Source of the DNA: Aeropyrum camini SY1 = JCM 12091
GTDB lineage: Archaea > Thermoproteota > Thermoprotei_A > Sulfolobales > Acidilobaceae
Assembly (NCBI RefSeq): GCF_000591035.1
Contig: NC_022521.1
Location: 744,001-808,000, forward strand
Length of the DNA: 64,000 nucleotides
Reading direction: 5' to 3'
Shown: in pieces, positions 46,486 through 49,531 of the stretch
Position numbering within the stretch: the first letter of the stretch is position 1
Layout of the letters: every line of letters starts with the position of its first letter
The notes under the pieces: model-generated
Databases searched by the model: none
What the model was told of the DNA's origin: nothing
Seen by the model: the letters and a program-made list of their open reading frames with translations, nothing else
Made by a program: the position numbers and the translations under genes

Positions 46486-46695
46486 GTGGTGTGGAAAGTG
46501 GCTGGCAGGATACTCGGGCAAACCGTTTCCAGGAGATCCTTCCTCGGCGGCCTTGTTCTAGCAGTCTCGGGCATATTCTTCTTCGGGGTGAGCGTCTACA
46601 CCATCTACCAGGGGAGCATCGCCGCCAGCCTCCTATCAGCCGCGATAGGCCTTGTTCTCGTGAGCCTAGGGGCTGATATGATGATGAGGGAGTAG
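46486..46695 (+). CDS. Small two-helix membrane protein (69 aa)
   Basis: Two helices (FLGGLVLAVSGIFFFGVSVYTIY and ASLLSAAIGLVLVSLGADM) follow a basic N-terminus containing SRRSFLGG, which resembles a Tat motif but is more likely a positive-inside anchor. It begins nine bases after the preceding stop (GTG 46486 or 46489) and is probably the last gene of the MoxR operon. The family is not recognised. Confidence 0.6.
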   Translation: MVWKVAGRILGQTVSRRSFLGGLVLAVSGIFFFGVSVYTIYQGSIAASLLSAAIGLVLVSLGADMMMRE

Positions 46696-46771: not shown

Positions 46772-46942
46772 CTAGGCTTTCCCTAGCACTCTATAGAAGA
46801 CCTTGCCGGTGTAGGGGCTCTTTGCCTTGGCGAACCTGAACTTGCCCCTCTTTGTCTCCTTTATTTCTACTTCGTAGTTGTCGGTCTCGTAGTACTTCTT
46901 AGCGACTAGGTCGAAGAACTTTATCTTCTCCTTCTTGGGCAT
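46772..46942 (-). CDS. CC1-like crenarchaeal chromatin protein (56 aa)
   Basis: The product, opening MPKKEKIKFFDLVAKKYYETD and ending AKSPYTGKVFYRVLGKA, is a basic ~6.5-kDa protein with alternating strands and a KETKRGKFRF segment. Size, charge and the pattern fit CC1, the ss/dsDNA-binding chromatin protein reported from Thermoproteus tenax with homologues restricted to Pyrobaculum and Aeropyrum. That match is from memory of the family and not from an alignment. The ATG at 46942 lies ~20 bases from a strong TATA box, so the message should be nearly leaderless. It is divergent from the SSB gene. Confidence 0.75.
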   Translation of the reverse strand: MPKKEKIKFFDLVAKKYYETDNYEVEIKETKRGKFRFAKAKSPYTGKVFYRVLGKA

Positions 46943-46956
46943 CTTTCAGCACCGTG

Positions 46957-46967
46957 ATTTATATATA
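46957..46967 (-). promoter_or_regulatory. TATA box for the CC1-like gene
   Basis: The minus strand has TATATATAAAT, a near-ideal archaeal TATA element. Spacing puts the start of transcription within a few bases of the ATG at 46942. A strong box fits an abundant chromatin protein. Confidence 0.65.
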
Positions 46968-47103
46968 GACTAAGTGTTATTTAAGCTTTAGCGGCCGGTA
47001 TTCTGTTATGAAGTCTACCCCAGTGTAATACCCCCGCGTCCTTCAGCCCGTCCGCGAGACGCCCGACTATATGGCTTAGCATGCGTAATACGGGGGAGGA
47101 CAG

Positions 47104-47111
47104 ATATAAAA
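47104..47111 (+). promoter_or_regulatory. TATA box for the SSB gene
   Basis: GATATAAAAGG is a strong archaeal TATA element. Transcription should start near 47133, leaving about 17 bases before the TTG at 47150, which has GAGG four bases upstream. Confidence 0.65.
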
Positions 47112-47149
47112 GGCCTGGCGACACCTGCCTGAGTGGAGCATGAGGAGCG

Positions 47150-47608
47150 TTGGAAGGAGATAGAACCCGAATTATGGATCTTAAGGAGGGTCTTAGGAAC
47201 ATCTCGATCTCCGGCCGTGTCCTAGAGGCGGGAGAACCGAAGATGGTTGAGACCAAGAGAGGGCCTGCGACCCTGAGTGAAGCCGTCATAGGCGATGAGA
47301 GCGGGAGAGTTAAGGTGACCCTCTGGGGTAGCCATGCGGGCACGCTTAAAGAGGGTGAGGCCGTTAAGATAGAGGGAGCATGGACCACCAGCTACAGGGG
47401 TAAGGTCCAGGTTAACGTCGGCAGGGAGTCTACAATAGAGAGGGTGGAGTCTGACGAGGTGCCGCAGGCCAGCGACATACCCGAAGAGATGCCGGAAGCC
47501 CAGTATAGGGGCTTCGGCCAGAGGCAGCCGTATAGGGGAGGCGGCTTCGGAGGCTTCAGAGGCGGTGGCTACCAGCCCCGCAGGGGCGGCGGTAGGAGGA
47601 GGTTCTAG
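47150..47608 (+). CDS. ssb: Crenarchaeal single-stranded DNA-binding protein (SSB), single OB fold (152 aa)
   Basis: The OB fold (residues ~12-105) reads ISISGRVLEAGEPKMVETKRGPATLSEAVIGDESGRVKVTLWG, close in pattern to Sulfolobus SSB, with conserved aromatic LWG and AWTTSYRGKVQVNVG. A flexible Gly/Arg-rich tail (GGGFGGFRGGGYQPRRGGGRRRF) ends the protein; in Sulfolobus SSB the tail is more acidic at its very end, which is missing here. It coats ssDNA in replication and repair. The TTG at 47150 has the ribosome binding site; an ATG at 47174 is the alternative. Confidence 0.9.
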   Translation: MEGDRTRIMDLKEGLRNISISGRVLEAGEPKMVETKRGPATLSEAVIGDESGRVKVTLWGSHAGTLKEGEAVKIEGAWTTSYRGKVQVNVGRESTIERVESDEVPQASDIPEEMPEAQYRGFGQRQPYRGGGFGGFRGGGYQPRRGGGRRRF

Positions 47609-47709: not shown

Positions 47710-48306
47710 TCATCTCTCCCCACGTCTCTTCTCCCCTGTCGACGGGGCTATTCTGCGGGCCGCGGCCTCTACGTCGACTTCAACCCTGACTAGCCCTGGC
47801 TGCTCTCGCAACGTTCTAGCCCCAAGCTTTCTCGCCAGTGTTATGGCCCTCTGGTTGTCTGAGAGGACGTAGCCATAGAGCTTCCTGACGCCCGCCAGCT
47901 TGAGTACTGATATCATTACTCTGGCGAGGGCGGAGCCGAGGCCGTGGCCCTGGTAGTCCTCCCTAACTATTATACCCCCTTCAGCTGCTCCAGTCTTCTC
48001 GTCCACAAAGCTCTCAGCCATACCTACAATATCGCCTGTCTCTAGGTCCTCGGCCACTATAACTAGCGTGCACCTGTCGCTGAGCAGCCTTTCTATGTAG
48101 GGGTCGAAGTACCTAACGACCGCGAAGAATCTCGTGTAGATCGTCTCCTCCGAGAGGCTATTGTAGAAGCGGAGGAGCTTTTCCTTGTCCCCGGGGCAGA
48201 GCCCGCGTATCCTGACTCGGCGGCCGCCTCTGAGGGTGACAGTGCCGAACTCTTCACCGCAGAGGGGGCACGCCTCCTGGGTGTGATGTGAGGACTGGGG
48301 CTGCAA
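47710..48306 (-). CDS. GNAT-family N-acetyltransferase (198 aa)
   Basis: The acetyl-CoA-binding motif is IVREDYQGHGLGSALARVMI near residue 130, followed by KLYGYVLSDNQRAITLARKLGA, a standard GNAT C-terminal half. The N-terminus has a CPLCGEEF knuckle but no second Cys pair of zinc-ribbon type (a single further Cys follows at RGLCPGD). The closest relatives are the stand-alone GNAT domains that resemble the acetyltransferase part of Pat-type enzymes; the substrate is unknown. Confidence 0.85.
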   Translation of the reverse strand: MQPQSSHHTQEACPLCGEEFGTVTLRGGRRVRIRGLCPGDKEKLLRFYNSLSEETIYTRFFAVVRYFDPYIERLLSDRCTLVIVAEDLETGDIVGMAESFVDEKTGAAEGGIIVREDYQGHGLGSALARVMISVLKLAGVRKLYGYVLSDNQRAITLARKLGARTLREQPGLVRVEVDVEAAARRIAPSTGEKRRGER

Positions 48307-48349: not shown

Positions 48350-49531
48350 TTAGCTTCTAACCGCCTTAACCCTGGGAGACCGGCGGAGGAGGCCTATAAT
48401 CCAGTAGGAGGCTATCTCAGCCTCCCTCCTACCACCCCGGATGGCAGCCTCGACCGTGAGACCCTTCACCGAGACCTTGAGGGGCTTGAGGCCGAGGGCT
48501 TCTAGGAGGCGGGCTACCTCCCTATCGCTAGCAGGGGGGAGCCTGGATAGGTCCCCGCAGGGGCCTAGCCTGCAGGCCGCGCAACCCTGCCGGTGGCTCT
48601 CTATGTTGGCGCTGCAGCTCGCGGGGAGGACTTTAAACCCTATCTCTCTCGCCTTCAACGCTATCTTCTCCTTAAGGTCCCTCGAGTATATGGGCAGCTG
48701 CTCTCCCCTCCTCGGCCAGCGGGCCAGCCGCCTCTCTATCTCCCCCATATCGACGGCCCCCGAGGCCCTCAGCCGGCGCAGTATCCCCTCTGCAACACGT
48801 AGGGTACCCAGGACCACCTTGTCTACTCCCGCGTAAGCAGCCCGGGAGAGTATGTCCTCCGCCTCCCTGTCCGTCACCCCGGGTATTATAGGTCTGAGGA
48901 AGAGTGTAGCGCTCAAACCAGCCTCCACGAGCCTCCTCATGAACTCCATCCTCTCCTCAGGCGGGGAGGCACCGGGCTCGAGGGCTTTCCAGAGCCTCAG
49001 CGTAGTCATGGATACTAGAACGTCTATCCGGGGATCAGCCGCCTCAACAAACTTCTCGAGCAGCCTGCCCTTCAGACCCGTCTTAGTGGAAACCTGCTGA
49101 GGGTTGCCTAGCCACCTCCTCGTGGACTCGAGATACTCTATAGCGCGCCAGGCCGTCTCCCTCATGAAAGGCTCTGTAACGCTGCCGAACGCGAGCAGAG
49201 TCCCCCTGGGGCCTGGGGCTACGTACGGGTTTAGGGCGAGGGCTAGAGCTAGCTCCTCCCCAGACAGGGGGTAGGGCTGGGGCTTGCCAGTGAAGCCCAT
49301 ATCGTATATATAACAGTATAGGCAGCCGTAGCTGCAGCCAACTCCGGTATGCACCGTCATCCCACATGGTATAGGCCTCCTCCGCGCATGCCAGTCCCTT
49401 GAGGCCCTCCTAAACCCCTCCTCGCCGACCCTACGCCTGAGCTCCTCGACGATAGCCTCCTTAGCGTAAACAGCATCCACAAGGCTATTGACGCCATCCA
49501 CAGGACAGCCACCCCCAGGCGCCTCAGCCAA
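48350..49531 (-). CDS. Radical SAM protein (393 aa)
   Basis: The [4Fe-4S]/SAM motif is GCSYGCLYCYIYDMG (CxxxCxxC) near residue 69, on a segment opening PCGMTVHTGVG. FGSVTEPFMRETAW and VSTKTGLKGRLLEKF are typical of the Rv2578c/SplB-like archaeal radical SAM group. A C-terminal cluster of five Cys (SCSANIESHRQGCAACRLGPCGDL) may bind a second Fe-S centre. The reaction is unknown. It is followed on the same strand by the GNAT gene. Confidence 0.85.
   Translation of the reverse strand: MAEAPGGGCPVDGVNSLVDAVYAKEAIVEELRRRVGEEGFRRASRDWHARRRPIPCGMTVHTGVGCSYGCLYCYIYDMGFTGKPQPYPLSGEELALALALNPYVAPGPRGTLLAFGSVTEPFMRETAWRAIEYLESTRRWLGNPQQVSTKTGLKGRLLEKFVEAADPRIDVLVSMTTLRLWKALEPGASPPEERMEFMRRLVEAGLSATLFLRPIIPGVTDREAEDILSRAAYAGVDKVVLGTLRVAEGILRRLRASGAVDMGEIERRLARWPRRGEQLPIYSRDLKEKIALKAREIGFKVLPASCSANIESHRQGCAACRLGPCGDLSRLPPASDREVARLLEALGLKPLKVSVKGLTVEAAIRGGRREAEIASYWIIGLLRRSPRVKAVRS

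Follow-up and report, generated by a model that had tools for sequence, protein, structure and literature searches.

The window analysed here is the whole stretch of 64,000 nucleotides of Aeropyrum camini SY1, in which a CC1 gene (46772-46942, minus strand; ATG start, 56 aa, 6.7 kDa, pI 9.9) and an SSB gene (47150-47608, plus strand; TTG start, 152 aa) lie head to head on either side of a divergent spacer of 207 bp (46943-47149, assigned to no strand). Both open reading frames, their divergent orientation and the spacer given in the original prediction are borne out by the window sequence, and the CC1/SSB pair is a real gene pair at this place. The genome is a single contig of 1,595,994 bp, in which CC1 and SSB are each present as a single copy. 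The conserved neighbours are a 69-aa ORF that looks membrane-like by eye (46486-46695, plus strand), a GNAT acetyltransferase gene (47710-48306, minus strand) and a gene encoding a 393-aa protein (48350-49531, minus strand), for which radical SAM is a putative label given by eye. The gene order moxR, DUF58, membrane ORF, 69-aa ORF, CC1/SSB, GNAT, 393-aa protein is kept in three Aeropyrum genomes, single members being missed or lying beyond the fetched stretch, moxR, DUF58 and membrane being labels given by eye, and the 69-aa ORF being represented in the third genome by a 22-aa match only. Three further genomes of the window's genus (G028, G029 and G030; completeness 96, 76 and 82) are without CC1, SSB or the neighbouring GNAT gene. 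Their best SSB match has an E-value of 0.06, even with the threshold set at 10, and the 393-aa neighbour persists in them by itself, in different surroundings; a joint loss of the block or a gap in the assemblies would explain this.

The SSB of the window is an ordinary crenarchaeal SSB. It scores 231.4 bits against NCBIfam NF005050 (cut-off 176) and 25.9 against PF21473 (cut-off 24), and it matches the solved SSBs 7wcg, 2mna and 1o7i, which we take to be Sulfolobus proteins, at E-values of 2e-35 to 6e-35. Like the crenarchaeal SSBs represented by NF005050 and by these three structures, it comprises a single OB fold and a basic Gly/Arg-rich tail, the neighbouring gene being the sole notable difference. 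The tail (window positions 47500-47608) is basic rather than acidic and ends with GGRRRF in three Aeropyrum genomes. The TTG start at 47150 is in frame in all three genomes of the genus that carry the gene, and an in-frame ATG is found downstream, at 47174.

The CC1 protein itself is already known, since Luo 2007 and Hardy & Martin 2008 reportedly dealt with CC1 of T. tenax and with Ape1322b of A. pernix. The window CC1 shows 98% and 93% identity to copies from two congeneric genomes, the former being the copy of G026, presumably A. pernix. It is also homologous over its whole length to the CC1 of genome G319 (locus L150, 52% identity), and the CC1 rows constitute one group of the tree (100/100), so that alignment upholds the predicted CC1 identity as the family and structure matches do that of SSB. 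Genome G319 (1,841,542 bp), in which two loci give the same CC1 protein, fits the published T. tenax genome, where TTX_1853 and TTX_1420 have identical CC1 products (PMC3189178); the A. pernix CC1 is already published as Ape1322b, according to passages of another paper (PMC3585288). With a mass of 6715 Da, a pI of 9.9 and five strands in a predicted model, the window protein fits the description of CC1 as a basic protein of about 6 kDa rich in beta structure and resembles both known proteins in being small, basic and beta-rich; the T. tenax protein is described, in part of a 2014 review, as a monomer binding ssDNA and dsDNA (PMC4200833). The two situations differ in that the window CC1 is single and lies by an SSB gene, whereas in G319 CC1 has several copies and SSB gave no match. 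Searches by sequence in Pfam, NCBIfam and the PDB left CC1 unnamed, a weak PDB match to an antibody (E 0.0045) being taken for chance, and the named genome collection yielded one CC1 locus, in an Aeropyrum MAG.

The spacer contains three A/T runs of length at least 8 (46957-46967, 46977-46984 and 47104-47111), compared with 0.78 per kb across the window. The original prediction saw two near-ideal promoters there, of which one part stands: each side has a well-placed candidate TATA box. However, the most striking box, TATATATAAA, starts 25 nt before the CC1 ATG and is therefore too close to be its TATA box, which in archaea normally lies farther from the start codon. By the same spacing rule, the ATTTATATATA run (46957-46967, no strand) would be too near this ATG. 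The likely CC1 TATA box is CTTAAATA (46978-46985, minus strand, read 46985-46978), which is better placed than TATATATAAA, its TTAAAT lying 42 nt before the ATG; that of SSB is probably ATATAAAA (47104-47111, plus strand), whose TATAAA begins 45 nt ahead of the TTG. When the spacers of three Aeropyrum genomes are aligned, the identical columns per 25 amount to 22, 25, 24, 16, 9, 12, 17 and 20 between the window and G026, and to 18, 23, 16, 10, 4, 14, 10 and 10 between the window and Aeropyrum sp. Thus, the 62 CC1-proximal columns, which include a CC1 promoter block (46943-47003, minus strand), are conserved across the three spacers, the middle is variable, and only the closest pair (window and G026) shares the SSB promoter. 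No conserved element between the two promoters was found in this alignment. This pattern points to two separate promoters and lends no support to the shared regulation that had been proposed for the pair.

Comparison with other genomes confines the pair to one genus. Among 58 distinct genomes, represented by 87 loci (some of them shortened by contig ends), three have SSB at no more than about 1.5 kb from CC1, and all three (L001-L003) belong to the window's genus; of the 58, 46 are of the class, 43 of them with an SSB match, and 12 are of other families. Elsewhere, where both positions are given, different contigs or long distances separate the two genes, the closest pair being that of G115, at about 11 kb. 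A general CC1-SSB linkage is therefore rejected. Under an assumption of 1700 genes, two named genes would be adjacent by chance in about 0.0012 of cases per genome, i.e. about 3% over the 23 genera with CC1, and adjacency is for this reason weak as evidence of function. The pair appears as a local curiosity of Aeropyrum, from which no cooperation between CC1 and SSB can be concluded. Around 32 CC1 loci, other groups of neighbours are common to up to 8 loci, and their translations were read by eye as metabolic enzymes. In genus g112 (Thermoproteus-like), three genomes out of three have a CC1 copy at a distance of 0.8-1.0 kb from the RFC genes and of 3.3-3.6 kb from Orc1/Cdc6 (L212 3467-8336, L224 and L226, which are three of the seven CC1 loci fetched from these genomes).

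Such data could also be read as traces of a functional pair, CC1 and SSB being under shared control and used jointly on ssDNA at forks or in repair. Indeed, the head-to-head order is kept in three Aeropyrum genomes with CC1 copies 98% and 93% identical, chance adjacency is rare in any one genome, the three congeneric genomes without CC1 and SSB are also without the adjoining GNAT gene, and the g112 copies lie near replication genes; furthermore, a pair kept in one genus is what co-regulation also predicts, which counts against the explanation preferred here. However, the pair is missing from the other 55 of the 58 genomes, the region between the promoters holds no conserved element, the SSB promoter is unconserved in the third species, and no Orc1 or close RFC match was found at any of 13 CC1 loci in five g96 genomes, where L217, L218 and L229 have only 27-33% identical matches to the RFC large subunit. 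Joint functioning therefore seems improbable, and two genes with separate promoters remain the preferred reading of the locus. As a distinct observation, in genus g12 of the window's family, SSB lies tail to tail with Cren7 in the four genomes fetched (L207 1096-1883, L208, L209 and L210).

The distribution of CC1 also bears on the idea, invoked in the original prediction and left open by the T. tenax genome paper (PMC3189178), that CC1 compensates for the loss of SSB. A single-sequence search detected CC1 relatives in 50 of the 229 genomes of the class and an alignment search in 79 of them at an E-value of 0.01. Sixty of these 79 genomes, with E-values below 1e-8, were counted as having CC1 or a cysteine-less CC1-like protein, the 60 sequences being read in part. 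The matches of the 19 other genomes were read in part, and the weaker ones among those read turned out to be zinc ribbons with cysteines, Cren7 or chance matches; a match in a 401-aa frame (L094) was set aside as chance, and L089-L091, L093 and L095, which are Cren7 rows caught by the CC1 profile, were moved to the Cren7 set. SSB matches were found in 194 of the 229 class genomes and SSB-like matches in 339 of the 398 genomes of the phylum, absence of either protein meaning here absence from the positive rows (positives and negatives sum to the genomes searched). SSB is present in 55 of the 60 genomes of the class that carry CC1, the exceptions being G059, G061, G082, G100 and G113 (completeness 86, 65, 92 with contamination 7, 78 and 71). 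In the phylum search, five f34 genomes (G272, G303, G309, G329 and G334) have neither a crenarchaeal SSB match nor a CC1 row. All four combinations of CC1 and SSB thus occur, and therefore CC1 does not follow SSB loss; compensation is not borne out, and CC1 is rejected as a general SSB substitute by both its co-occurrence with SSB and the f34 genomes.

A more restricted proposal, in which CC1 would be an SSB stand-in in Thermoproteales and the Aeropyrum pair a relic of the hand-over, agrees best with family f25. None of its 18 genomes with CC1 rows is SSB-positive (a search at threshold 10 in five of them gave no match in four and an E-value of 0.0085 in G258), and 12 of the 13 among these 18 that are at least 95% complete hold 3-5 CC1 matches. 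The f34 genomes and the 55 CC1 genomes that keep SSB nevertheless argue against it, as does ThermoDBP, cited in part of a 2022 paper as the SSB replacement in most Thermoproteales (PMC8998557). Such a hand-over is thus very unlikely, and CC1 would rather be a chromatin protein beside Cren7, SSB being the main single-strand binder.

The origin of CC1 is better illuminated by its relatives. The CC1 profile caught cysteine-less proteins (FDVKAKKK...GKSPETG) as well as cysteine-bearing ones (FCVKCRKK...GKCPYCG), from which three sets of rows were hand-picked among the matches: CC1 itself (A5), cysteine-bearing relatives (A6) and cysteine-less relatives (A8). The Pfam family DUF5679 (PF18930) matches the 15 rows of A6 and 20 of the 21 rows of A8 (best E 4.3e-7; 28.4 for relative L036, gathering cut-off 27) and none of the 19 CC1 rows of A5, the window CC1 included; the link between CC1 and DUF5679 therefore runs through intermediates. 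DUF5679 zinc ribbons that bear the cysteines are present in the order and the phylum of the window, and G161 combines in one genome a copy without cysteines (L109) and one with four (L165). The families that contributed cysteine-less rows are f1-f4, f7, f18, f25, f38 and f65.

The two CxxC knuckles of DUF5679 are missing from the window CC1. In the alignment, the zinc ligands Cys 1 to Cys 4 of the relatives correspond to D11 (codon 46910-46912), A14 (46901-46903), S42 (46817-46819) and T45 (46808-46810), all on the minus strand. The ligand columns read D-A-S-T in 39 of 40 cysteine-less rows and D-E-S-T in the remaining one, while four cysteines are found in 12 of the 15 cysteine-bearing rows; within the latter set, L084 reads CCCD, probably through a gap shift around CPGDCG. 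Two other DUF5679 relatives, L159 (168-314, minus strand) and L166 (128-274, plus strand), have Cys-Asp-Cys-Cys at the ligand positions and are possible half-way forms.

Profile comparisons (hhalign) connect these sets. A8 aligns with A6 at an E-value of 2.3e-22 and 53% identity, CC1 with A8 at 2.3e-10, and CC1 with A6 at 3.3e-6 over 54 columns, with a probability of only 88%, compared with 0.085 for CC1 against SSB as a negative control. For none of the first three comparisons did any of 150 column shuffles do as well, and reversed controls were also far below. Against Cren7, CC1 reaches a probability of 20% over 20 columns, a value that none of 150 shuffles equalled; A6 beats all 150 shuffles over 11 columns, and the result of A8 was reached by one of 150. 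Direct homology of CC1 and Cren7 by sequence is thus weak, being confined to these 20 columns, and PF11520 (Cren7) matches neither the window CC1 nor the other 18 CC1 rows. Besides the group formed by CC1, a tree of 48 columns separates the other rows poorly; one and several losses of cysteines are indistinguishable in it, and the change is unrooted. The long branch that parts CC1 from the other rows (1.27 per column on one side of the midpoint and 0.82 on the other) would, like the low probability obtained against Cren7, be expected if CC1 resembled zinc ribbons and Cren7 through convergence among small basic beta-proteins. Nonetheless, the 54-column alignment is in register with both knuckles and unmatched by shuffles, graded intermediates exist between CC1 and the cysteine-bearing set, and the same replacements recur in almost all cysteine-less rows, which makes convergence unlikely and descent from a DUF5679-type zinc ribbon the favoured origin.

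The predicted fold is consistent with this origin. The AlphaFold2 model of CC1 (pLDDT 90.7) has strands at residues 7-11, 16-20, 24-30, 33-41 and 48-55, and that of a cysteine-bearing relative has five strands in the same order (87.6). CC1 therefore has in common with the DUF5679 zinc ribbons the knuckle positions, the profile similarity and a predicted five-strand fold, although these proteins bear four cysteines in most aligned rows and CC1 itself falls below the Pfam model. The residues replacing the ligands are at or beside the beta1/beta2 and beta4/beta5 turns of the CC1 model, i.e. the turns where passages of a 2018 paper place the knuckles of Cren7 (PMC5906684). In VIA-align, which covers only chains ranked by Foldseek, the CC1 model has Cren7 structures at ranks 1-11 (Z 5.3-6.0, 50-55 residues, 25-29% identity), modest scores, since a Z under 8 can mean a common arrangement only. 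The first of them is titled Sso6901, which we take to be Cren7, and they are followed by zinc-ribbon proteins (NrdR, ZPR1 and RNase P) at Z 3.7-3.9. Foldseek gives E-values of 0.27 or worse for Cren7 with the CC1 model. The best rows of the model of the cysteine-bearing relative are also Cren7, at an equally modest Z of 4.3-4.8, tied with others within 1. Cren7 is therefore the best structural match of the CC1 model, with five strands in common, but differs from it by the lack of a Pfam match and a profile match of 20 columns only; furthermore, the window genome has its own Cren7.

Taken together, these data make it quite probable that CC1 and an ordinary SSB are two single genes that became head-to-head neighbours in Aeropyrum, each under a promoter of its own, and that CC1 derives from a DUF5679-type zinc ribbon and has a Cren7-like, metal-free fold. 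The ancestor would have been a five-stranded sheet with two zinc knuckles, at the beta1/beta2 and beta4/beta5 turns. The knuckles would have stayed where they were, the four cysteines giving way to Asp, Ala, Ser and Thr, zinc being lost rather than gained, and the result would be a fold that is stable without metal, in a small basic beta-protein that probably coats DNA in A. camini. The origin of CC1 weighs more than its pairing with SSB. Kaur et al. 2018 trace both Cren7 and Sul7 back to zinc ribbons, Cren7 being one that lost its zinc, and, in the passages concerned, name CC1 in passing (PMC5906684). CC1 and Cren7, which look unrelated in sequence, may thus both stem from zinc ribbons that fold without metal. 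A somewhat bolder proposal, which we still hold to be rather likely, is that archaea have in CC1 a second chromatin protein, which derives from a zinc-stripped DUF5679 ribbon and belongs, as one branch, to an old and widespread family of metal-free zinc ribbons that has gone unrecognised, in parallel with Cren7 or akin to it, with D-A-S-T relatives in distant families of the phylum. If so, CC1-like proteins would reach well beyond the few Crenarchaea to which the 2014 review, in the relevant passages, assigns CC1, described there as having no sequence similarity to Sul7 and Cren7 (PMC4200833). The zinc-ribbon origin of CC1 is fairly well supported and apparently unreported: the literature searched, outside which most subscription papers fell, contains no report of it and no paper naming DUF5679. 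The D-A-S-T relatives probably include proteins of ammonia oxidisers (family f18). Two cysteine-less CC1-like proteins of this family, L154 (129-359, plus strand) and L155 (134-364, plus strand), carry a C-terminal extension that ends with a CxCxxxC cluster.
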